A DNA stretch of 25,208 bases from a virus. The stretch lies in IMG/VR virus record IMGVR_UViG_3300049043_000001, positions 1-25,208 of that record, one strand, 5' to 3'. The notes under the pieces are model-generated. The model saw nothing but the letters and a program-made list of their open reading frames with translations, did not search any database and had not been told where the DNA came from. Below, in pieces: positions 3,798-24,186 of this stretch. The translations under genes were made by a program, and so were the position numbers. Position 1 is the stretch's first letter. Every line of letters begins with the position of its first letter.

Positions 3798-5392
3798 TTA
3801 TTGATTTAAAATGACGATTACCATACCGGAGCCGCCAGCCGCTCCTGCTCCAGCAGAATAACCACCAGCACCTCCACCACCACCGCACGAGCTGCTGCAG
3901 TTCCAGCACCACCATTTGAACCTCCCGTCCCACCACCTCCGCTACCGCCAGAGCCACCAGTTCCAGGGCTTTGAATACCACCACCTCCACCACCGCTATA
4001 TGTCACGCTACTGCCAGAAATGGATGATGCCGTACCTGCACCACCTGGGCCGCCAGCAGTAGAACCTGATGAAGTTCCACCAGCAGCAGATGCTCCACCA
4101 CCGCCACCATAGCTCGGAGAACCATTGCCAGCAGAACCGTTATTTCCTTGAGATGGAGAAAGATCAGGCGATCCAGTACCGCCAGCAGTAGCACCAGCAC
4201 CACCATAGCCACCACCACCAGAGCCACCGTTGCCGCCCGCACAATGCACCAGCACCAGCACCACCATAGCCACCACCAGCAGATGTTATTGTTGAAAATA
4301 CGGAATTCCCACCAAGACTGCAACTCCACCAGAACCGCCGCCTCCGCCAACAGTTACTGTATATTCTGTTTGAGCCGTGACAGATAAAGCAGAACCAGTA
4401 CGAAATTGATGACACCTCCACCACCACCTGAAGCACCAGGGCTTGCAGTTCCTGCTCCACCACCCCCGCCACCAGCCACCACTAGAATCGCACACTAGCC
4501 ACACCAGTAGGACATATCCATTTAGCCGATGGATTTAAACGTAAGACTGTTTGGTCACGACGGTGTAAGAAAGAACTACGATGCCAGAGCCGCCGCCACC
4601 GCCTGCGCCAGTTGGGGAACCACCACCGTTAAATGCTCCACCACCGCCACCGCCACCAAGATTGGTAGTTCCAGATGTTGCAGTTACATTACTGTCGTTT
4701 GCTCCTGCTCCACCGCCGCCACTACTTCTTGCGCCACCAATCGTAATACCTTGATCATAAAAAGCACTAGCTCCACCGCCGCCAGCATAAGTTACAGAAC
4801 TTCCGCTACGGCGATGCTCGACCATTTCCTCTTGATGCTGCCGTAGGTGTGCTTGTTGTTCAGGTTCCGCAGCAGATGCACCGCCACCACCGCCGCTACT
4901 TCCAGCATTCGCAGACCCACCGCCATTATTGCCCTGGCGACGGCGACGCGCGAGGAGATTTCCCGCACCCCCCGCGCCACCATATCCACCACCGCCTCCA
5001 GAACCGCCGGCTGCACCAGCAGCAGCAGCCCCTACACCAACCCCATTACCACCACCGGAAGCAGTAATAGTGTGGAATACAGAATCCACTCTGACCGTAA
5101 TCGCGGGGTCGGAGGCTCCAGAAGCGCCACCTGTACCGCCAGCACCAACCGGATGATCGCGGTAATCAGTACCAGCAGTAACACTAAATCCCGTACCTGT
5201 TCTAAAGCCACCAGCGCCGCCACCACTACCAAGTTGAATACCACCACCCCCGCCACCAGCCACCACTAGAATAATCCACCTGCGTAGCACCAGCAGGTGC
5301 AGTCCACTTACCAGAAGCGGTAAGGTTTGGACGACGGTGAAGCCTGTACTGGCAGCCGCCATCGCTTGCATAAGTTTTGTGAAAGCAAACAT
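3798..5392 (-). CDS. Glycine-rich tail adhesin-like protein (frame breaks)
   Basis: ATG 5392 opens MFAFTKLMQAMAAASTGF. Two modules follow. Each starts with a W-x-x-P-x-G segment (LTASGKWTAPAGATQVDY; LNPSAKWICPTGVASV) leading into LVVAGGGGGG and a long glycine-rich tract with Ser, Ala and Thr. The end is GYSAGAGAAGGSGMVIVILN then Q and TAA at 3798. Total about 530 aa. Poly-glycine tracts like these form polyglycine-II sandwiches in phage tip adhesins that bind host receptors. The frame is lost several times, often in GGT/GGC runs. A tail tip or fibre adhesin is the likely role. Confidence 0.65.
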
Positions 5393-6389: not shown

Positions 6390-6401
6390 GATTTGTCCTT
6401 A

Positions 6402-7320
6402 CTAATTAACAGTGTTGATTGGTTTCCAATTAGGCGTTTGATCGTCGTTAATTGGTTCCCACAAAAATCTGCTGCTTACTCGATCCGATGCCTGCGCAGA
6501 TTCAGCTACTCTTGTCTGCGTATCGCCTGACGATTCATCCGTATCTGCCGCGCTAGTATTCTCAAGCACCGTTGCCAAGAATATCGCCAGCGCTGAATCT
6601 ACATCTGTTGCCTGTACCGTATCATCTACTAAACCAGTTGTGGTTCTAATTCCAACTATTGCATCAGATACATTCGCAGTTTCAGTACAGCATACCCCAT
6701 ATACCAAACGCGCTTGAATACGTCACTGCTTGCGTTTGCTGTTTCAGCCACATTGGATGTATATGCCAAACCAGCCACAACTGTCTCAGATGCATTTGCT
6801 GTATCCGTAACAGACGCTGGGAATGTTACATACATACTTACTGTTTCACTTGCGTTTGCCGTTTCCGACACGCTGCTTGCAAAGACTCCCAACGAGCTTA
6901 CTGTATCGCTTGCATTTGCCGTTCTCAGATATAGCGCTGCCAAATATAATCGCGGTCGTTATCGAATTCACCTTGCGTCTGGCTGTTTCGCTAAACGAAC
7001 TTGCAAAAACAAGTCCTGCTGTTACTGTTTCTGTCGCATTAGCTGTTTCACTAATACTTGCTACTAAAACTTGATCTGCTGCATACGTGTCGCTGGCGTT
7101 AGCTGTTTCGGAGACAGTTGCAAGTATGGGTGCTGTGGCTGCTACGTTGGTGGAATCAGATGCGGTTAAATAACCAGCCACCAAATCCCCAGCCATTCTG
7201 TCCCCATGTGCCCGTGCCCCAGCCGCCATACGCAATGATAGGCGGTATAGATCTGAACATCGCCATCCAGCCTCACCCCAATAACCACTGCTGTAGCCGC
7301 CATCGACTTGCGCCACTCAT
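6402..7320 (-). CDS. Tail fibre with SETANASD repeats (many frame breaks)
   Basis: Start is ATG 7320 or GTG 7316. A Gly/Trp-rich front (DGGYSSGYWGEAGW; YGGWGTGTWGQNGWGFGGW) is followed by about ten units of 19-22 residues built on the pattern (V/I)-SETANAS-(D/E)-T, for example TVSETANASDT, SISETANATET, SVSETANASET, SVTDTANASET and NVAETANASSD. The end, FLWEPINDDQTPNWKPINTV, resembles the closing Trp/Asp repeats of phage fibres. About 300 aa. Repeats of this sort form extended beta-helical or triple-stranded shafts. The frame is broken at least four times, partly between repeats. Confidence 0.65.
6480..7115 (-). repeat. Tandem imperfect repeats of about 60 bp within the fibre gene
   Basis: On the plus strand the unit shows as gc-(g/a)-tt-(t/a)-gc-(t/c)-gttt-c, returning about every 56-66 bases from 6480 to 7115. 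Each unit encodes a SETANASD-type block. The repeats are imperfect at the DNA level, which argues for old duplication rather than an assembly artefact, although collapsed or extra copies cannot be excluded. Confidence 0.7.
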
Positions 7321-9193: not shown

Positions 9194-9452
9194 TTAAGCC
9201 ATCGGCCCTCTGCACATCGTGCCTTTGGTAGCAGCACCAGCGCCGCGCATCTTGATACCATCAGTCTTAACTTCTTTGTAGTTGCCCTTGCTCAGACCAG
9301 CTACAGAGATGTTCGATGTCATCCATAACTTTAGCGCCAGCCGTATATGGCAAGTCAGAATCCAGTTTCGCACCCTTCATGGTATGCGGCTCGGCATAAG
9401 TAGATGCTTGACCTACTTCTTTGCCTTTAACCTTCTTAGAGAACTTAGCCAT
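9194..9452 (-). CDS. Small protein with C-terminal DGIKMRGAGAATKG motif (frame break near 9318)
   Basis: ATG 9452 gives MAKFSKKVKGKEVGQASTYA, EPHTMKGAKLDSDLPYTAGA and KVMDDIEH. The uncorrected frame ends at 9267 as LCSWSEQGQLQRS. Dropping one C gives SVAGLSKGNYKEVKTDGIKM then RGAGAATKGTMCRGPMA and a TAA at 9194 directly before the next start. The protein is about 85 aa. The DGIKMRG...TKG tail is a motif I recall at the ends of small proteins in similar phages, and is related in form to the RGKT motifs elsewhere in this window. Function unknown. Confidence 0.65.
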
Positions 9453-9616
9453 TATCGACCTCTTCCGTTGGATTTCTGGTTCATAACGCGAGCCATATTG
9501 CGACCGTATTTTTTCATGGAATCGGTAGTAACGCCACCTTTTGCCATCTTGTGCATACGCTTTTCATGCGCCCGCACTTCCTTGTCAGCGATCTGTTTAA
9601 CTTGCTTTGTGTCCAT
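9452..9616 (-). CDS. 54-aa basic protein
   Basis: ATG 9616 follows TTAGGAGTACAAG. The intact frame reads MDTKQVKQIADKEVRAHEKR, MHKMAKGGVTTDSMKKYGRN and MARVMNQKSNGRGR. Basic and helical, with the K-GGV-T-x-x-x-MK-x-x-GRNMA-R pattern that I associate with small proteins of related phages. TAA overlaps the next ATG by one base (TAATG). Function unknown. Confidence 0.72.
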   Translation of the reverse strand: MDTKQVKQIADKEVRAHEKRMHKMAKGGVTTDSMKKYGRNMARVMNQKSNGRGR

Positions 9617-9625
9617 CTTGTACTC

Positions 9626-10048
9626 CTAATTTATGGTTACGTTTGAAACTGACGTACTAGCTACCAAGTTGTTTGGGGTAAGTCCATCATCAATACCTCT
9701 TGCGCCACCAACTGGATACCATCCCCACTGAATAATCCGGCTACCACCACTTGGATACCCGTCTTCACTAACCAGCGGTCCAGCTTGTATATCCGTCTGC
9801 AAACCAGTAAATCCAGATTGCCAGTACGACTTATCAGGCCGTGGATCCCGTACTGCCTGCGGATCATTAACCGGATATAGACCCAAACTTAACTGAGGCT
9901 GATCTGGTTCCCAGCATGTCTTGCAAACCTTGATATTGACGTTCTTTGTCTTGATCGTCAGTCTCTTTAATTCTTTCAGCAAATACCTAAAACCACAACG
10001 GTCACATTCGGCAATCGCCTTCTTACCGGCTGTATATTTACTAGGCAT
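9626..10048 (-). CDS. Conserved zinc-ribbon phage structural-region protein
   Basis: The 140-aa protein is intact. It starts MPSKYTAGKKAIAECDRCGF and carries two Cys pairs, CDRC (15-18) and CKTC (42-45), spaced as a zinc ribbon. The second half (YPVNDPQAVRDPRPDKSYWQ, IIQWGWYPVGG) is Pro/Gly/Trp-rich and ends in a short beta stretch. It lies 3 bases after the connector stop, so it is presumably co-translated and part of head-tail completion. No enzymatic residues are seen. Confidence 0.75.
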   Translation of the reverse strand: MPSKYTAGKKAIAECDRCGFRYLLKELKRLTIKTKNVNIKVCKTCWEPDQPQLSLGLYPVNDPQAVRDPRPDKSYWQSGFTGLQTDIQAGPLVSEDGYPSGGSRIIQWGWYPVGGARGIDDGLTPNNLVASTSVSNVTIN

Positions 10049-10051
10049 ACA

Positions 10052-10793
10052 TCACCTGTAAGTAATCATACGAGGCACCAAACGATCTGGCGCTTTCTCG
10101 CGGTCTTCTCCTGCCGCCATTTCCCATGACTCATCGTACTGAGACTTCAGCAACTGTATGCGCTCTAAGCCGCCTGGCAGCTTCATAGCCAGCCTGTAAG
10201 CCAAGCCACATATCAGCGCCTCTTGGAAACGGAATGGAATATCTTCCACATTCACACCGTTGCCAGCATCTGTCATACGGCGCAAACGCCAGTAAACAAA
10301 GTAGTAGTACGGAGCTTCAACCGTTCCCTGATCTGGCGTAGGCCACACAGTAAACTGCGGAACCTGCGGAGTAGCACCTACCGTATCTGTTGTCTGTCCT
10401 GAGCGGCGGTTTACCCACACCTGAATAGGACGTCCCTGTGTCAACTTGTTAGGGATAGTCGAATACGTAGATACGCTTATTCTGTTGATGTTGATGTCGA
10501 TCTGGTTCGCTTGGGACCCTGGATAATTACGAATAACATGCTCGATAAGATCAACAGTATCGTCAGGAAGGTCATACGTATTTACCCCTTGTATCAAAGG
10601 AATCGTGCCAGTATCGATAGTCCACAAATTGATGCCGCGATTAGCCCACTCTGTCAACAACAAATTCAAGCTGCGACGTGCCGTGCGGAAGTCGTAACCA
10701 GTACGTAGCTCTAAGTCCAACGCGCTCAAAAGCCTCCTCAACGATATCGTTAAGGGTTGGGTTCAACGCTGTGGTGCTGGTTGTATATGGCAT
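10052..10793 (-). CDS. Head-tail connector/adaptor, gp4-like (frame break near 10712)
   Basis: ATG 10793 gives MPYTTSTTALNPTLNDIVEE then AFERVGL; dropping one base near 10708-10715 continues as ELRTGYDFRTARRSLNLLLT and then intact to TAA at 10052 (about 246 aa). The body contains EWANRGINLWTIDTG, a long beta region and a closing helix, RFQEALICGLAYRLAMKLPG. Helical N-terminus, beta middle and position between capsid and tail genes suggest a head-completion protein of the P22 gp4/adaptor kind, which attaches below the portal. The homology call is from pattern and context and is moderate. Confidence 0.65.
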
Positions 10794-10830
10794 GATTACT
10801 TCTTCTTACAACCTTTGAAAGCGTTTCTGC

Positions 10831-10977
10831 TTATCGTGCTCTCTTACCGAGGGTGCCTGGTTTCTCTGGAGCGGCAGCGAGTTTCTTTGCCGGTGATGGT
10901 CTTTCCTCTTTTACGCCAAGCTGAGCACGCAGAGCACCTGGTTTTTTTATAGCCTTTTGTATCCATTTTTCAGCCAT
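10831..10977 (-). CDS. Small Lys/Ala-rich protein starting MAEKWIQKAIKKPGALR
   Basis: ATG 10977 overlaps the endonuclease stop by 8 bases. The 48-residue frame reads MAEKWIQKAIKKPGALRAQL, then GVKEERPSPAKKLAAAPEKP and GTLGKRAR. The protein is basic and helical; proteins with this beginning are frequent in aquatic phages as I recall, without function. The true end may be at 10796: a one-base change near 10831 adds about 12 residues ending GCKKK, immediately before the next start at 10793. Confidence 0.6.
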   Translation of the reverse strand: MAEKWIQKAIKKPGALRAQLGVKEERPSPAKKLAAAPEKPGTLGKRAR

Positions 10978-11417
10978 CACTTCCTCCGTTAACTACACGA
11001 AGAGCATAAGAACCTTTGTCATTCAAATAGTCAATAGCCTTTTTTAGCACATCCGTTGAATCTTTAGCCATGCCAAGCAAGGTATTGCAGTTTAAACAAA
11101 GTATCCCCTCTAAATGCCCCAGTTTCAGTGGTTATGGTCTATTGCATACATCCTGCGTCTATTTTCGTAGGTCATAAGGTCAGGCAACTCTTCCTTGCAT
11201 ACGGCACAGCAACCATTTTTTGTTGTTGCCAAGCTTCCATAAATTGCTGATGGGTAACGCCATACTTATACTTTAAATGCTGCTCAAGACGTTTTTTTGG
11301 CGACCTACTTTCCCAGCTATTCTTCTGCTTGTGTTTTTGACACGGTATACAAAGATACTGCCCTTTCCAGAATTGATCTAAATCTTTTTCGGTTTCACAA
11401 ACAGGGCAACGCTTCAT
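10970..11417 (-). CDS. Endonuclease VII-like protein (three frame breaks in second half)
   Basis: The N-terminus is intact: MKRCPVCETEKDLDQFWKGQ, with two Cys pairs (CPVC; CIPC) and a basic region. One base missing in the A-run near 11220 breaks the frame. The other frame reads NGCCAVCKEELPDLMTYENR, RRMYAIDHNH, and after two more corrections ETGAFRGILCLNCNTLLGMA and a helix to TGA at 10970. This is the CxxC, D-H-x-H, CxxC core of the endonuclease VII family. Net +1 base fits one deletion and two insertions. It is the second such nuclease in the window and is overlapped at both ends by neighbours, so it is integrated in the operon. Confidence 0.82.
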
Positions 11418-11680
11418 TTTTTACGGGCTGCCCATAAGTTATCCACTAAATTCGGATAAGGTCTGCCAGCCGCTTTAGCCCTAGCCTTGGCTGCTGCCTT
11501 CTTTACCGCTGTTAACACAGAAGGCTTACCCAATTTGGCTGGACGCGGCTTATCCCACACAGGTTTTACTTTCCCACCCTTCTTATACTGGGTGAAGTCA
11601 GTATCATCCCTGCGGGCTTTCTTAGTGCCCTTGGGCATCTTAGATGGGTTGATATCACCCATGCCGCGTGATGGCCTCAT
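11414..11680 (-). CDS. Small Lys/Ala-rich basic phage protein
   Basis: The 88-aa protein begins MRPSRGMGDINPSKMPKGTK, has YKKGGKVKPVWDKPRPAKLG in the middle and ends in a Lys/Ala helix and AAGRPYPNLVDNLWAARKK. The MRPSRGMG-x-INP-x-KMPKG opening recurs in phages of this type as I recall it, with no known function. It is overlapped by ATGA on both sides. Strong positive charge suggests nucleic-acid binding, perhaps with packaged DNA; this is inference. Confidence 0.7.
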   Translation of the reverse strand: MRPSRGMGDINPSKMPKGTKKARRDDTDFTQYKKGGKVKPVWDKPRPAKLGKPSVLTAVKKAAAKARAKAAGRPYPNLVDNLWAARKK

Positions 11681-12105
11681 ATCAGCAGTACCCGCCTTTT
11701 TTCATTCTTGGTCATGCCGCCTTTTTTCATGCCTTTAGCGCCACCCATGATGCCAACAGTCTTACCAGAATCACCTAGATTCTTGCCCTTGGTTTTGCCT
11801 TTAACAGCAACACCATCACGGCTAGGAGCAGCAGTTTTAACAGCGCCCATCTTAGATGCAGCAACGCCGCCTTTTTTCATACCCTTCATCTCAGACTCCT
11901 CATGTTTAATCATAGATTTAGGAGCGCCTTTAGCTTTCATAAAGGACACTTCCTTTTTAACCATCTTCTTTGACTCAGCCATACCGCCTCCAGATTTAGT
12001 AAATTCTTTCCCCACAGACTGCGGCACACCGGCCTTCTTAGCAAATGCAGGATTGTGGGCTACTGCCTGCATAAACCTTTCTTGTTTCTTGCTAACACTA
12101 GGCAC
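11677..12105 (-). CDS. DUF3008-like small basic protein
   Basis: The 142-aa protein starts with GTG: MPSVSKKQERFMQAVAHNPA, then FAKKAGVPQSVGKEF. This beginning resembles the DUF3008 family of short basic proteins. The middle carries SRDGVAVKGKTKGKNL (residues 95-110) and repeated MKKGG boxes. The protein is very Lys-rich. Its end (EKRRVLLI) follows a run of six A; with one more A the frame would continue into the next gene (EKKAGTADMRPSRGMG). However, TGA and the next ATG form a normal ATGA overlap, so I keep two genes. It may be a DNA-associated virion protein (inference). Confidence 0.65.
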   Translation of the reverse strand: MPSVSKKQERFMQAVAHNPAFAKKAGVPQSVGKEFTKSGGGMAESKKMVKKEVSFMKAKGAPKSMIKHEESEMKGMKKGGVAASKMGAVKTAAPSRDGVAVKGKTKGKNLGDSGKTVGIMGGAKGMKKGGMTKNEKRRVLLI

Positions 12106-12369
12106 GAGTCTTACCCCTTATAGCGCAACCATCCGCACGGGCAGAAGCACTGGAAACTTTTCCACCCTTCTTTAAACATCTTAGGCTGCTGTTGGTTAGG
12201 GTCTACGTTAGCCTGTGGCTGCATGTTGAATGTCTGATTCATGCCGCCATTCTGACCGCCAGCTTGTGGCTGATTGCCATAGAACGGATAAGTAGGTTGT
12301 TGTGTCATACCGCCGTCTGCGTATTTTTTCACTTTGCCGCCTTTTTTTATAGGAGGCTGACTTTGTCAT
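12098..12369 (-). CDS. Small protein with KKYADGG and RADGCAIRGKTRA motifs (two frame breaks)
   Basis: ATG 12369 is preceded by AGGAAG. Dropping one A from an A-run near 12347 gives MTKSASYKKGGKVKKYADGG, then a Gln/Asn/Gly-rich middle (YGNQPQAGGQNGGMNQTFNM). Dropping one G near 12160 gives MFKEGGKVSSASARADGCAI then RGKTRA and TAG at 12098. That stop overlaps the next GTG start by 8 bases, which supports the corrected frame. The protein is about 89 aa, basic at both ends and probably disordered in the middle. Function unknown. Confidence 0.6.
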
Positions 12370-12410
12370 CAAGTCTTCCTGACGGCAACTTGCGTTCGCT
12401 TTTGCTCCAA

Positions 12411-12591
12411 TCAGCCTTGATTAGTTTCGTATATTCTTGTGCTGCTCAGGAGTTTTGTCTTGGCATGCAAGGGATCATCAATATTTATGGGCTTTGCTGC
12501 TTTATCTTTTAGACAGTCGTGCACAGTACCCAGATCGATCATGTACAGGCGGAGTAATTCCCTGCGCTCTGCAGGAGTTAATCGCAGCCAT
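12411..12591 (-). CDS. Conserved 59-aa phage protein (frame break at start)
   Basis: ATG 12591 overlaps the previous stop as TGATG. With one A removed near 12577, the gene reads MAAITPAERRELLRLYMIDL, then GTVHDCLKDKAAKPINIDDP and LHAKTKLLSSTRIYETNQG, stopping at 12411. The protein is a short helical one without recognised motif. The clean read-through after one correction and the coupled start support it. This gene is invisible unless the frame is corrected. Confidence 0.55.
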
Positions 12592-12741
12592 CAGCAGATC
12601 CTTCCTGCGAGTTTTGCCACGCTGGGCTATGCCATCACCGCGAGATGAGGCTGTGGAAGTTTTACCACCTTTTGCAAGACCATTTACAGAACCGCCTTTT
12701 CTTGCATCCCTGGCGCATGCAGACTGGCCCAGATCTTGCAT
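12591..12741 (-). CDS. Small basic protein with C-terminal RGDGIAQRGKTRGRIC motif
   Basis: From ATG 12741 the frame reads MQDLGQSACARDARKGGSVN then GLAKGGKTSTASSRGDGIAQ. Removing one base near 12606 gives RGKTRGRIC and a TGA at 12591, which overlaps the next ATG exactly (TGATG). The uncorrected frame runs into the next gene instead. The protein may begin further upstream, at 12833 (MKSGGACK), but that requires one in-frame TAG to be an error. The GKT-type tail recurs in other small proteins of this window. Function unknown. Confidence 0.5.
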
Positions 12742-12861
12742 TGATTTGCCTTTTGCATAAGGGGTTAATCACGCAAGCCCTTCTTTGGGTGATCCATAAC
12801 TTTGGCCTATTTGCAGGCGCCTCCGGATTTCATGTTCTGACGATGGACGTTTTTTAATGAC

Positions 12862-13061
12862 TCATGTACCCGGAGTGTTTTCTTTTGCTCTATGCCAACC
12901 AAGAGCCAGCGGTAATATCTCTTTAGCACCCATGCGTTCTTTAGCTAAGGAACGTATTCTTTGGTCTCTCATCTTTACCAGATGAGCTTACCTGGCAGTA
13001 CTTTACTGTATTCGCCAATTTTAAAATCTTGGCTGCCAATCTTTTGCAACAGAATCTTCAT
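12862..13061 (-). CDS. Possible small protein, two fragments
   Basis: ATG 13061 opens 28 codons (MKILLQKIGSQDFKIGEYSK, then VLPGKLIW). A second frame starting at ATG 12972 gives 36 codons (MRDQRIRSLAKERMGAKEIL). One extra base between them would make a single protein of about 65 aa ending HRAKENTPGT. There is no ribosome site of note, and the start overlaps the preceding gene by 41 bases. Real coding is possible but not proven. Confidence 0.3.
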
Positions 13062-13430
13062 TCTTAGGAGAGCTTTTTCTTTACTACAGTTTTTTTCTTA
13101 ACTTCAACTTCAGGCTCTTCCAAAGCTAGGTTTCTAGCGCCTTTTCCTGCCGCGCTTTCTTCACTAAAGGAACGAGAAGATAATGGCATCTCAGTTTCAG
13201 TAGTAGATTCTTCTTTGATTGTTGGAGCATCCAGACCATGTAGACGTAGCTCCAGCACGTTTACCCATAGAAGAATAGTCATCTACGCCGCTAGAAGTTG
13301 GCCTATCTTCCTTGGCTAGCAGCTACCATATCTGAGTCTTAACTGTTTCGCCTGAGCCAGACTTAACTGGATTGCCGTAGCGGTCGGTAAGAATGCCGCC
13401 TTCGTCGTAGCGTTTAACTTTGCGTTTCAT
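13021..13430 (-). CDS. Small protein with KRYDEGG motif (frame broken)
   Basis: ATG 13430 opens MKRKVKRYDEGGILTDRYGN followed by PVKSGSGETVK. After a break near 13325, the sequence EDRPTSSGVDDYSSMGKRAG is read. Another frame then gives LDAPTIKEESTTETEMPLSS, EEPEVEVKKKTVVKK and finally KSSPKNEDSVAKDWQPRF with TAA at 13021. The protein is about 135 aa, charged and low in hydrophobics, probably disordered. The K-x-Y-x-x-GG start is shared with another small gene here (12098-12369). Function unknown. At least three breaks are needed, so details are approximate. Confidence 0.5.
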
Positions 13431-13433
13431 GAC

Positions 13434-13676
13434 TTATCCTTTTTGCGAAATAAGTTGATCTATCTTTGCTTCAAGTTTGTTGAAGCGCTGATCTATGTGG
13501 TCAGTGATACGCTCAACTTCGGCGTTGGTTACGTTATCACGAGCAATCTCTTCACGAGTTTTATTCAACAATATAGTGATGCGAGAAAGCTCATTGAACT
13601 TTTCGTGCGCCACATAAGCAAAAAGCCCAGTAAATAGACTTAATACAGTCATCCATAGGCCACTCATATCTAACAT
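13434..13676 (-). CDS. Membrane-anchored coiled-coil protein, holin-like candidate
   Basis: The 80-aa protein (or 77 aa from the second ATG at 13667, MSGLWMTVLSLF) has one N-terminal membrane segment, LWMTVLSLFTGLFAYVA, followed by a long charged helix with heptad pattern (KLEAKIDQLISQKG at the end). This architecture recalls XhlA-type lysis accessory proteins and small phage proteins near holins. The start overlaps the endonuclease VII stop. A lysis or membrane function is inferred; no lysis gene is adjacent, since the endolysin is 11 kb away. Confidence 0.65.
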   Translation of the reverse strand: MLDMSGLWMTVLSLFTGLFAYVAHEKFNELSRITILLNKTREEIARDNVTNAEVERITDHIDQRFNKLEAKIDQLISQKG

Positions 13677-14089
13677 TTTTCAACCTCATTTAAATACTTA
13701 TGCCACTTTGGACTATCAACTGATGCATATAAATATTGTGCTGCAAATTCTAAAAGCATCGGATCATCCCTAAAATGGCCCAAACCACGATTGCAATGAT
13801 TGCACAATAAACCGCGAATATTCCCAGTTTTGTGACTATGATCCACAACAAGTTTTTCTTGTGATCCACAAATAACGCATTGCGTAACAGTAGCTTTTAA
13901 TTCTTTCAAAGCTTTGTCTGAACAGTACATTCCTAAACTTACCACGGTTAATCCCATTTCTATATGTAGCTCCTGCATTCCCTGCACCAACTATCTAAGC
14001 CACTTTCTTTTCTTGTTATGCGAAGGGAAGATACTCAGCCTGAAGCTGGTTTTTTCTGTTTTGCATTTAGTACAAGTCAGCATTTCCAT
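13670..14089 (-). CDS. Endonuclease VII-like protein (frame breaks in first third)
   Basis: The C-terminal 70 residues are intact: CVICGSQEKLVVDHSHKTGN then IRGLLCNHCNRGLGHFRDDP, the HNH/zinc core of the recombination endonuclease VII family (T4 gp49 type), with Cys pairs and the D-H-S-H active-site segment. Upstream, frames must be joined: MLTCTKCKTEKTSF gives a first Cys pair, WCRECR a second, and INRGKFRNVL then SDKALKEL continue to the core. ATG at 14083 or 14089 overlaps the DUF6321 stop. Endonuclease VII resolves branched DNA during packaging; free-standing copies in phages are often mobile. The family call is secure, the role less so. Confidence 0.82.
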
Positions 14090-14331
14090 TTTCTTAATGC
14101 TTTATTGATACGGCTATTTGGATCGTTTGCCGTTTTTGCGCTGGCATTCTTCTTTTTGTGCCCCTCCATCCTCGCGCAGAAAGACTTCTTCCGTGAACCA
14201 CCTTCTGGCTGAGGGGCTTTCAAACCTGGCTTCCCCGGATTGGCTGCGTTGTAGGACGCCCGTCCTTTGGCGTTTAATCCGCCCGACGGGTTTTTGCCCT
14301 CTTTCCCCTGCCATGCCGGAGACTTAGCCAT
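14077..14331 (-). CDS. DUF6321-like small basic protein
   Basis: I start this at ATG 14331, giving 84 aa: MAKSPAWQGKEGKNPSGGLN, AKGRASYNAANPGKPGLKAP, then RRKSFCARMEG-type residues (actual KKSFCARMEGHKKKNASAKT) and KALRKWKC. The opening W-x-x-KEG-x-NP-x-GGLN-x-KGR pattern is that of the DUF6321 family of phage proteins, whose function is unknown. A longer in-frame start at 14460 would overlap the preceding gene and lacks the conserved beginning. The protein is strongly basic and probably binds nucleic acid or is packaged with the virion (inference). Its stop overlaps the start of the endonuclease VII-like gene. Confidence 0.72.
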   Translation of the reverse strand: MAKSPAWQGKEGKNPSGGLNAKGRASYNAANPGKPGLKAPQPEGGSRKKSFCARMEGHKKKNASAKTANDPNSRINKALRKWKC

Positions 14332-14399
14332 AAACGACCGTAACGCTTGCAGTTGAGCCGTAGTAGTAACTGTTAGGTTAGATTTAGCAAGACATGCCT

Positions 14400-14614
14400 T
14401 CACCTGGCATGCAACACGTTTAAAGAACCTGATCCAGTCGTGCGGATAGCAAACTTCCATATCTGTGTTGTACCGTCGCTTACCGTTACATTGCCAGCCA
14501 GTAGTATTAGAGGCAATAGTCAGCGCCCTTGAACTCTAGCGCGACCCTCAAATACCAACTGTGGTTGCAGCACCTACACCTAGCGTTGGCCTTGACGTCT
14601 GTTTGCATAGCCAT
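14400..14614 (-). CDS. Small structural-like protein (frame broken)
   Basis: ATG 14614 follows AAGGAGGCATCACC, a strong ribosome site. Reading MAMQTDVKANA in the first frame, then TLGVGAATTVGI and ALTIASNTTGW in the second, and NVTVSDGTTQIWKFAIRTTG ending SGSLNVLHAR in the third gives a plausible beta-rich protein of about 70 aa. At least two breaks are required, so exact residues are uncertain. The composition resembles its upstream neighbour. A virion protein is the best guess. The 68 bases between it and the next start hold nothing recognisable. Confidence 0.45.
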
Positions 14615-15232: not shown

Positions 15233-15944
15233 CTATTGCTGGGCGCAGGTAAATTTCCAACCAGTATAAGGTCCGCGAGTTAATGGTTTCCCAGACTTTA
15301 ATGCACGGTTTATGGTGGGAGGTTTAAGACTTAACGCAGCCCGTAACTCAGCTATGCTTCGGTACAAAGTATCGCCTGTAGGCCCGTTAGCTAATACAGG
15401 GCGGCTTACTTTTGCTCCATGATCTTGTACGTTTTTTGCCATACCAATAGTTACCTTCGCCAGATAGGGTGGCGGATATTTTGGCACGCACCTCTGCAGA
15501 CTTTGGTTTGCCAATAAGATGCGCAGTTTTCTGTTTATTTGTTTCCTCATCAAACTTCCTGCCTTTGGAAAGAAACCCCAATTTTTTCTTTTGCCTCATC
15601 AGTATGCTTGTACCCCCAAGTCGGACTAAGTTCCCCTCCCATCCCAATCATCGGAGCTGTGGCATCTATGCCTAAGTTGTAGCAATACTCCTTACCAACA
15701 TGTTCTCTGCCAGACATTTTCAACGGACAGCAAATCAGCATCATCTGGAAGTTCTTCCACAACCACGAATACAAATGCCTGCTCACCGTACTTTACCCAA
15801 GCAGCTTGTAGATGCCGGTTGTTGTGCCTGCCATTACGCAATTCAGAAATGCCGCGTCTTGCGTCGCTTCAAGTACCACTGTGCTTCGCAACGTTAAACT
15901 TGTTGCTTCACCACGTCTGATTGTTTGTAGATTCCTCGCGCCAT
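15233..15944 (-). CDS. GIY-YIG homing endonuclease with NUMOD-type C-terminus (several frame breaks)
   Basis: Starts at ATG 15944 after AAAGGAGGG. Pieces in different frames assemble into one protein of roughly 235 aa. MARGIYK supplies the GIY motif. Then come RKTRHF, SELRNGRHNNRHLQAAWVKY and GEQAFVFVVVEELP (the conserved helix and strand of GIY-YIG nucleases). NUMOD3-like elements follow: WGYKHTDEAKEK, KGRKFDEETNKQKTAHLIGK and KSAEVRAKISATLSGEGN. The C-terminal helix-turn-helix reads YRSIAELRAALSLKPPTINR, ending GWKFTCAQQ. The family cuts intron- or gene-free alleles and promotes its own spread. It stands alone between the capsid terminator and a new promoter, as expected for an insertion. 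At least four breaks are needed; true decay cannot be excluded. Confidence 0.8.
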
Positions 15945-19067: not shown

Positions 19068-19616
19068 TTAACAGTCAAACCGATTGCCTTTGGATCGGTT
19101 CTCCCGTCGTGACAACACCTGAAGATTCTCTGGCACATGTAATCCAGATACTTTTTTGCCATTTAGTGGGATTTTGTGGTCCACCTCAAAGCCTTTAAAT
19201 ATCTGACAAAACATATACATGCCATCGATTTCCGCTTGGTGTCCGGCTGTTAATTGCATTTGATCCCTTATACGTCCTTGCCTGCGGCGTACGCGCTCAA
19301 TCTCGCGGGCACTGTTAGCTGCGTAGTTTTTCCTACGCAATTCCAACCAATGTTCTTTGTTCTGGTTTTGCCAGTCCATAGTCTTTTTGGTGTAGTACTC
19401 ACGATTTTTCTTCATTGAAGCCAAAGATCTGGCATTACAGATTTCTCTGTTTGCCTCTCTGTATCTATCAACGACGGTTTTGCGCGTAAGGCTGTTACGT
19501 TGCATATCTGCTTTGCACACTTTGCAATAAACTTGATAGCCAGTAGCAGCCCTCCGGTCTTTATGAAACTCGGATACTGGTTTCTCAACCTTGCAATGTG
19601 GGCAAAATTTATGCAC
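19068..19616 (-). CDS. HNH endonuclease with N-terminal zinc finger
   Basis: This 182-aa protein starts with GTG, overlapping the previous TAA by 8 bases. The N-terminus has two Cys pairs (CPHC, residues 5-8; CKVC, 31-34), a likely zinc finger. A basic helical linker follows. The C-terminal HNH core reads FEVDHKIPLNG (143-153) and HVPENLQVLSRRENRSKGNR (160-179), giving the D-H pair, the central Asn and the last basic helix. Such free-standing HNH enzymes nick or cut DNA and often behave as homing endonucleases or aid packaging. It is intact and interrupts the head genes between the GroES-like protein and the scaffold, which suggests a mobile insertion, although the overlap with its upstream neighbour indicates it is settled in the operon. 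Confidence 0.88.
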   Translation of the reverse strand: MHKFCPHCKVEKPVSEFHKDRRAATGYQVYCKVCKADMQRNSLTRKTVVDRYREANREICNARSLASMKKNREYYTKKTMDWQNQNKEHWLELRRKNYAANSAREIERVRRRQGRIRDQMQLTAGHQAEIDGMYMFCQIFKGFEVDHKIPLNGKKVSGLHVPENLQVLSRRENRSKGNRFDC

Positions 19617-22710: not shown

Positions 22711-24186
22711 TTAGTAGTAAACGCGCTTGCGACGGAAGCCGATATCATCGTCCTCTTCGTCGGAATCAAGCCGCAAAAATCCGCCCTGCCGAAATCGCAT
22801 CAACGCTTGTACCGTGCTATCTACCAAGTCATCGTGTTCTGCGTTCGGAAACCTTGCCATCTCCTCGATAACCTCGTCAGCCCAACGGGTTTCGGGTGCC
22901 CACACTTTACCGGATGAGAATAAGTCCGTCACGCTGTTCAAACGCACGAACTTATCGTTACCTCGCGTCGGTGTATAGTCCTGAACGTACACACCCATGC
23001 GTCTTAACTCAAATATCAACGGCGCGCCCGCAGCTTTTGCTTCAATAATGCAGGCATCCGGCTGCCATTCGTCGTACATCTCTTTAGCTTTTGCCTTTAA
23101 CTCGGGAAACTCCAGCTTATCCTTCCACGCATCCAGCAAAATGATGTTTACATCGCTCTCATTCTCGTCTTTGTGGAACACACCCCATGTTGTACACGCA
23201 GAATAGTCAGCCCGCTGGCTCTTTGTGAACGCAGTATCCCAACTTTGGATGATAAATTCGCACGGAGGCGCTCTATCTCCCTCCCAACGCTTCCACCAAT
23301 CACGTTTTACCAGCGCACCTTCCTCACCTGTAGGCTGTTGCTGGTACTGAGCGTTCCATTTATAGGGTGGAAGTTCTTCCTTTAGCGCTGCAAGTTCTTC
23401 CAGCGGCCAGAATTCAGGCCAAAGTGAGTTACCGGACGGCAAAATCGCTGGCAGTTCTATCACTTCCCAGTCAGATGAGTCACTTTTCAACACCTTGCCG
23501 GTCAAATCCTTATCCGACCAGCGTGTCATCACAATAATAATCGCCCCGCCTGGCTGTAAACGCTGCCGTGGACCAGATGTGTACCACTCGTACACGCTGT
23601 CAAACACGGTTGGATCACCCTGCGCTAGCTTTGCTTCTTGTTCTGAATGCGGGTCATCTATTATCAGTAGGTCTGCACCCTTACCAGTAACAGTACCGCC
23701 TACACCGATAGCGAAATAATCCCCGCCGTGGCTAGTAGCCCAGCGTCCAGCCGCTTTAGAGTCCACCCGCAACCCCACGCCAGGAAAGATTTTCCCGTAT
23801 TGCTCACTATCTACTAAGTTCCTAACCTTCCGTCCAAACCCCACCGCCAGTTCTGCCGTGTTAGACGTTTGAATAACCTTCTTATTAGGGTAATTCCCCA
23901 AGAACCACGCCGGCAACAGATAAGACGCGAACTCTGATTTTGTATGTCGCGGCGGCATATTAATAATCAGCCGCTTTAACTTACCCTGTGCTATTTCCTC
24001 AAACTTCTTAGCCATAAGGGCGTGATGTCTGCCATGTATAAATCCCGGCCACATCTCTTTCACGAATGCCATGAACGACTTCTGAGCTTTCTCGCGGGTA
24101 ACAGCGTCCTTATACTGGCCCACTTGTTCCAGTAACTTCTCCTGCTCCGCCGCCGGAAGCTTAGATATCAGCTCACTTAAGTCCAC
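22711..24186 (-). CDS. terL: Terminase large subunit
   Basis: The 491-aa protein is intact and has the full ATPase plus nuclease layout of the large terminase, which drives DNA into the prohead and cuts it. The Walker A-like motif is MPPRHTKS (residues 77-84; the family commonly has PPRHGKS). Walker B is LLIIDD (173-178) and the coupling motif is MTRW (220-223). The C-terminal RNase H-like nuclease shows SWDTAF (315-320), the IEAKAAG segment (381-387) and HDDLVDS (451-457), which together supply the acidic metal ligands. It starts with ATG inside the end of the 68-aa gene and ends 8 bases before the portal start. Length and motif order are normal for the Terminase_6/Terminase_6C family. It is one of the few long genes here without a frame break. 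Confidence 0.96.
   Translation of the reverse strand: MDLSELISKLPAAEQEKLLEQVGQYKDAVTREKAQKSFMAFVKEMWPGFIHGRHHALMAKKFEEIAQGKLKRLIINMPPRHTKSEFASYLLPAWFLGNYPNKKVIQTSNTAELAVGFGRKVRNLVDSEQYGKIFPGVGLRVDSKAAGRWATSHGGDYFAIGVGGTVTGKGADLLIIDDPHSEQEAKLAQGDPTVFDSVYEWYTSGPRQRLQPGGAIIIVMTRWSDKDLTGKVLKSDSSDWEVIELPAILPSGNSLWPEFWPLEELAALKEELPPYKWNAQYQQQPTGEEGALVKRDWWKRWEGDRAPPCEFIIQSWDTAFTKSQRADYSACTTWGVFHKDENESDVNIILLDAWKDKLEFPELKAKAKEMYDEWQPDACIIEAKAAGAPLIFELRRMGVYVQDYTPTRGNDKFVRLNSVTDLFSSGKVWAPETRWADEVIEEMARFPNAEHDDLVDSTVQALMRFRQGGFLRLDSDEEDDDIGFRRKRVYY

Follow-up and report, generated by a model that had tools for sequence, protein, structure and literature searches.

A portable C-terminal tag on unrelated head-operon proteins in one capsid clade of aquatic phages and its possible role in virion loading

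Introduction

The capsid-targeting signal of phage T4 is N-terminal and is cut off by the head protease. The T4 internal proteins (IPI-III and Alt) are diverse, with the capsid-targeting sequence as their sole common feature (PMC3012670), and the first 30 residues of the P1 protein DarB suffice to send a reporter into the capsid (PMC9024508). Short C-terminal peptides load cargo into the HK97-fold shell of encapsulins (PMC8346489). In the accessible parts of Iyer et al. 2017 (PMC5512222), polyvalent proteins, with two to fifteen domains, are predicted to be head-packaged and injected, and no terminal tag is described on them. Here we describe a short, mostly C-terminal tag on small proteins of a phage head operon, found in the 25,208-base IMG/VR virus record IMGVR_UViG_3300049043_000001 (the window, meaning that whole stretch of DNA), across which many frame-breaking indels are spread.

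The tag resembles the T4 system in being a short conserved signal on diverse head-operon proteins, with about 100 N-terminal clusters sharing it. Unlike the T4 and P1 signals, it is C-terminal and unrelated in sequence, and the surroundings of the capsid genes, with many unannotated proteins, contained no separate protease that could be recognised as a head protease. DarB is one giant protein; its targeting to the capsid is the function that we propose for the tag. Like the encapsulin peptides, the tag is a short C-terminal peptide after a flexible linker; those peptides, however, serve cellular nanocompartments with enzyme cargo and have another sequence, and the shell is a candidate partner of the tag. 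In contrast to polyvalent proteins, those bearing the tag in the window's group are small single units without functional Pfam domains; one domain is shared with a polyprotein (locus L225), and ART-PolyVal was found only in a sister set with another ending, THAHH. The hydrophobic segment of LPXTG/PEP-CTERM-type sorting tags is absent, as FWYILMV make up 17% of the tag region and its median net charge is +7 over 30 residues. A single Gram_pos_anchor match covered residues 3-27 and fell below the cutoff.

The C-terminal tag and its carriers

Judged from the sequences, the motif forms the best-kept part of a larger, portable C-terminal tag of roughly 25 residues. Its consensus is K-K/S-G-G-x-V-x-S-A-S-x-R-A-D-G-[CIV]-A-x-[RK]-G-K-T-[KR], followed by either A or G-[KR]-[MI]-[VCI] and the stop, and so two endings occur, with 2 residues (KTRA) or 5 residues (KTRGRMV) after the motif. 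The stop follows after 2 residues in 88 and after 5 in 276 of 534 copies (together 364). In 80 loci fetched by homology to G2, a tagged gene of the window, and not by the tag pattern, 177 of 244 copies (59 + 118) end in these ways, and the opposite strand of these loci has no motif match; the share is thus 68-73%. Mismatch at codon positions 1/2/3 is 0.23/0.21/0.61, and 0.20/0.19/0.57 among copies inside one locus. Third-position divergence with a kept peptide therefore indicates that selection acts on the peptide.

A hidden Markov model (HMM) was built from 99 tags taken only from proteins in other N-terminal clusters and lacking the signatures of the window genes G1-G3. The window copies score 57.2, 43.5 and 15.9 bits with this model; among 50 codon-shuffled windows the top score is 9.1. 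Each of 16 related contigs (33-67 kb) has 1-4 motif copies, in one cluster and always on one strand, and the reversed pattern is absent. Among the matches listed from 2.9 million viral contigs, all 116 examined loci fetched by the pattern carry the same phage-module genes. Pattern scans and relatives yielded neither of the two outcomes named beforehand as speaking against the motif, namely a chance-rate presence in unrelated proteins and restriction to this contig. The tag keeps to one operon position, from capsid to adaptor, and a genome has 1-6 copies.

A total of 340 tagged open reading frames (ORFs) fall into about 100 N-terminal clusters, a count that depends on the threshold in low-complexity sequence. 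When 110 dissimilar tagged proteins are aligned, the G-G, D-G, G and T of the tag are the only invariant columns. The 110 non-redundant carriers are positively charged overall and poor in hydrophobic residues, with a median length of 158 aa. The tag stands directly behind DUF6321 in two loci (L132 and L205), and elsewhere it is fused to the end of the QERFM domain known from 'virion structural' PHROGs.

Searches for earlier descriptions returned nothing. None of 60 tags matched PHROG, the tag had no PDB match, and across Pfam, PHROG, PDB and the literature no match describes it and no paper holding the tag strings was found. A tblastn search with the 28-aa consensus against 50,697 named phages gave no hit either, which we attribute to query length since the named Planktothrix phage Pag-Yong1 has a divergent copy that was found by pattern. 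Even if its function should differ from the one proposed below, a portable tag that keeps so strictly to the C-terminus of about 100 unrelated phage proteins has no earlier description.

Two minor observations concern the carriers. A mini-motif, AFxEARxxGxKTFxxxGKxYxT, recurs in many of them (L029, L062, L096, L121, L134, L150 and L153) and in otherwise unrelated contexts. In a Patulibacter contig of a metagenome-assembled genome (MAG; L206:6125-8093), the tag closes an ORF whose remainder looks like a partly repeated bacterial acyltransferase; this contig is probably chimeric.

Tag-bearing genes in the window

The genes that bear the tag, or were considered as bearers, are as follows.

12591..13430, minus strand: G1, starting MKRKVKRYDEGGILTDRYGNPV, with several indels; tag ending in KGGKTSTASSRGDGIAQRGKTRGRIC and the stop at about 12668-12591, with frames read; tag profile 43.5 bits
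12098..12591, minus strand: G2, containing YADGGMTQQPTYPFYGNQPQAGGQNGG, frameshifted; tag KKGGKVSSASARADGCAIRGKTRA and the stop at 12172-12098; tag profile 57.2 bits
11682..12105, minus strand: G3, with an N-terminal SKKQERFM...AKKAGVPQSVGKEF domain and the internal motif SRDGVAVKGKTKGKNLGDSG at 11823-11764; tag profile 15.9 bits
9452..9616, minus strand: gene without a tag in the window, containing MHKMAKGGVTTDSMKKYGRNMARVMNQ; homologues in L075, L078 and L079 carry TRADGC[VI][TS]KGHTKG... directly after MHKMAKGGV
9194..9452, minus strand: gene ending in TDGIKMRGAGAATKGTMCRGPMA and the stop, a single-copy motif distinct from the tag; no tag-profile match

The three motif copies first noticed are present on the minus strand, namely SRDGVAVKGKTKGKNL at 11823-11776, RADGCAIRGKTRA with its stop at 12100-12098, and RGDGIAQRGKTR followed by GRIC with its stop at 12593-12591, but the gene models around them needed correction. 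The segment 12591-12741, read before as its own gene, is the end of G1. The MKRKVKRYDEGG start at 13430 (K-x-Y-x-D-GG) and the RGDGIAQRGKTRGRIC end with its stop at 12591 belong to this single indel-broken gene of ~270 codons, because the relatives L008/L009 align to both ends (13430-13230, 13216-12944 and 12702-12607). G2, formerly limited to 12098-12369, extends over 12591-12098; relatives align at 12356-12159 and 12184-12101, and viral contigs contain at least 212 relatives. The C-terminus of G3, after a frameshift, is MKKGGYC and the stop at 11682, and its N-terminal domain is phrog_16759, which is also present in the 'virion structural' phrog_22033/25121.

The gene at 9452-9194, which had been counted as a fourth carrier, was rejected as such; the tag profile misses it, and its ending is a separate motif found in nearly all relatives, with the GAATKG motif present once per locus. 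Since this gene lies beyond the adaptor, the placement of all carriers between capsid and connector is true for three genes and not for four. The tag is optional at one site, as the homologues of the 9452..9616 gene in three loci are tagged and the window gene is not. The RGxGAA[TI][KR]G ending (window 9194-9260, minus strand), single-copy in nearly all tagged phages, also ends an unrelated 245-aa protein, HTVC023P gp32 (RPDGIRGVGAAIRGHKFIGVK and the stop), and is possibly another portable ending.

Operon position and lineage

The tag-bearing group is large and consists of uncultured phages from lakes and the sea. Across about 80 loci, tags sit in the region from DUF6321 to the adaptor, except for extra copies in the 9452-type gene. 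Among loci that were fetched by capsid alone and span capsid to adaptor, the motif is found in 30 of 34 from the window's clade, with the C-terminal form in 26 of 34, and in 1 of 48 from the sister capsid clade of phage DSL-LC04. The tagged phages form a single clade of the capsid tree with support 99/99; sampling of this tree is biased to tagged loci, which the capsid-only fetch offsets. The tag keeps to one capsid clade, in which it is almost always present. Pag-Yong1 falls in this clade and has one tag copy, the pattern-found one, on a 308-aa protein (UMO75986.1) ending in GRDGCAKRGRTKGRFI and the stop.

A host could not be called from GTDB contigs, where the candidates were five small MAG contigs with conflicting taxa. 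Three named records, OL906435, OQ594354 and PP438419, bear the host labels Planktothrix, Synechococcus and Planktothricoides. All are 65,014 bases long with identical TerL (terminase large subunit) and capsid scores, so that they are probably a single phage entered three times, and the host labels merit checking.

A second C-terminal ending and a shared domain

A domain-like region is common to two tagged families, with 23-26% identity across them. One of the two, the ITHAYRNMSQ domain (ITHAYRNMSQAEYDAAKKSGYF...VRVPKSKLPE-KAVRFKDVE), bears the tag in 15 of 16 loci. The remaining locus, L225, has this domain within a protein of 825 aa that is encoded directly downstream of a terminase-like ORF; the protein has K-x-GG-x-AHMADGG linkers and a C-terminus reading GGKVTHAHHLEIEERPL and the stop. 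The second ending (…THAHHLEIEERPL and the stop) was found in 54 of 54 contigs as a single copy, always 3 residues from the stop and on about 10 unrelated domains; eight contigs of 33-56 kb likewise have one apiece. No RADG tag was found in contigs with the second ending, which is net neutral.

ART-PolyVal is a Pfam family named for the ADP-ribosyltransferases of polyvalent proteins. The carriers of the second ending (THAHH) include a GNAT and two confidently assigned ART-PolyVal domains, which score 63.5 and 50.5 bits against a cutoff of 31.2. The RADG tag and the second ending may do the same job, as argued from their equivalent placement, the GG-x-V lead-in and the shared cargo domain. Structure models of the shared domain were of moderate confidence (pLDDT 62 and 72). 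A fold search with them gave weak matches to KptA/Tpt1, DUF952 and an ART toxin, which we take to be of the ART superfamily or its relatives; none was significant (probability at most 0.47), and thus no ART assignment was made.

Two side observations belong here. At L225:1303-5843, giant multi-unit ORFs follow the terminase-like gene, with K-x-GG-x-AHMADGG joining the units, a weak PHROG match and no Pfam match; they look like an unrecognised polyvalent protein. In L366-L445, of the DSL-LC04 capsid group, small proteins recurrently end in GVQGPFMxVKKKDGNRPVKIY and the stop, in three N-terminal groups only, a candidate third tag.

Proposed function and alternatives

We favour, with moderate confidence, the view that the tag is a virion-loading (capsid-targeting) signal, because it is modular, C-terminal, encoded in the head operon, carried by many unrelated proteins and interchangeable with a second tag that polyvalent-type proteins bear. 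A putative partner anchored in the head during assembly, which could be the inner face of the capsid, the scaffold or the portal, would bind the free C-terminal peptide. The head component reading the tag would be specific to the clade and the cargo exchangeable, and any protein gaining the tag would be co-packaged and delivered with the DNA, as for the T4 internal proteins. Several points weigh against this proposal. Four of the 34 capsid-clade loci are without the motif, and the G3 family has a minority internal form, SRDGVAxKGKTKGxN..., which is not C-terminal. The threshold dependence of the cluster count and the lack of significance in the fold search belong here too. None of the 110 tagged proteins matches a functional Pfam domain, and the putative injected activities are therefore deduced by way of the sister tag and a single domain in common. 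For tagged phages, a look for virion proteomics, structures or genetics found none.

Among processing, packaging, virion targeting and nucleic-acid binding, all offered by the original prediction, virion targeting is best supported by the modular C-terminal tag, its head operon and the second tag. A docking role for assembly only, on a morphogenetic partner such as GroES/GroEL, scaffold, portal or neck, would not need the proteins to stay in the virion or be injected. The operon does have GroES and a scaffold-like protein, and the tagged genes adjoin capsid, DUF6321 and adaptor; but ~100 unrelated N-termini that turn over fast, with each genome carrying 1-6 copies, form a pattern uncommon among assembly factors and characteristic of cargo, and the same domain type occurs in polyvalent-like proteins elsewhere, which leaves this role unlikely. 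We regard as slightly less probable that the tag binds or condenses DNA or RNA, so that a basic tail would hold the proteins on the packaged genome with virion association as a by-product. The tag region is indeed basic, as are the N-terminal parts, which are also low in hydrophobic residues. However, a tail acting by charge alone would not need the invariant D-G...G-K-T or a set spacing of 2 or 5 residues before the stop, and plain nucleic-acid binding leaves unexplained a net-neutral second tag at an equivalent position with a shared cargo domain.

A proteolytic site of head maturation, or a degron, could also be a short conserved sequence near the C-terminus, and KGG boxes recur at the domain junctions of the sister polyproteins. 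Yet a separate head protease was recognised neither in the head module of the window nor in the annotated modules of DSL-LC04 and Pag-Yong1 (with many proteins in these modules unannotated), removal of 2-5 residues needs no conserved stretch of 25, and the two tags have no common cut-site consensus, so that processing appears very unlikely. A recombination hot-spot that shuffles cargo genes, conserved as DNA with a functionless peptide, would explain the mosaic of unrelated N-termini ahead of one conserved segment. It is highly improbable and was rejected by the codon pattern, where third positions are near saturation overall and within a locus while the peptide is kept. Finally, D-G-x-x-x-R-G-K-T fits the Walker A pattern G-x(4)-G-K-[ST], but with 2-5 residues to the stop there is no room for a P-loop helix and no hydrophobic strand precedes; among 523 aligned copies, 23 have H or R in place of the lysine and an otherwise intact tag. 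This extreme C-terminal position, together with the lack of a P-loop match in PDB or Pfam, led us to reject a Walker A loop, to which we give next to no probability.

If the tag is a virion-loading signal, it would serve as a search key, any protein so ending being a candidate injected effector, and would thereby yield a testable list of more than 100 unannotated small proteins of abundant aquatic phages. Capsid targeting by a transferable peptide, as known in T4 and P1, would then have arisen in other phage lineages in C-terminal form, and the tag would offer a route to the cargo of polyvalent-type systems. A broader idea, which we put forward tentatively and hold to be rather less than even in likelihood, is that lineage-specific C-terminal address tags (RADGxAxRGKT..., the second ending and perhaps more) constitute a general, evolvable effector-loading system of tailed phages, where each capsid lineage would have its own tag and cargo domains would move by gaining the local one.

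Gene order of the window

The minus-strand order is TerL, portal, GroES, a scaffold-like gene, a pre-capsid gene, major capsid protein, a cement-like gene, DUF6321, a small membrane-type protein, the motif genes, adaptor and tail genes. Four of these genes place the locus.

22711..24186, minus strand: terminase large subunit, 57% identical to phage 023Pt_psg01 and 54% to Pelagibacter phage HTVC027P
16123..16974, minus strand: major capsid protein (Mu gpT-like head subunit), phrog_371 4.5e-19
14077..14460, minus strand: DUF6321 protein, left boundary of the tag cluster, Pfam PF19846 2.8e-17
10052..10741, minus strand: head-tail adaptor, right boundary of the tag cluster, by synteny with the annotated Pam1-type adaptor of DSL-LC04; phrog_12985/394

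The nearest named phages by TerL are 023Pt_psg01, DSL-LC04, Pelagibacter HTVC027P/HTVC023P and Pag-Yong1, and the nearest by capsid is Pag-Yong1 (67%). Judged by eye, no fewer than four ORFs resembling HNH or similar homing endonucleases are placed between structural genes on the minus strand (19068-19616, 15233-15786, 13670-13990 and 11172-11417). Tail-fibre-like ORFs at 3800-5392 and 6400-7316, also on the minus strand, contain Gly-rich and NASETV-type repeats and are broken by indels.

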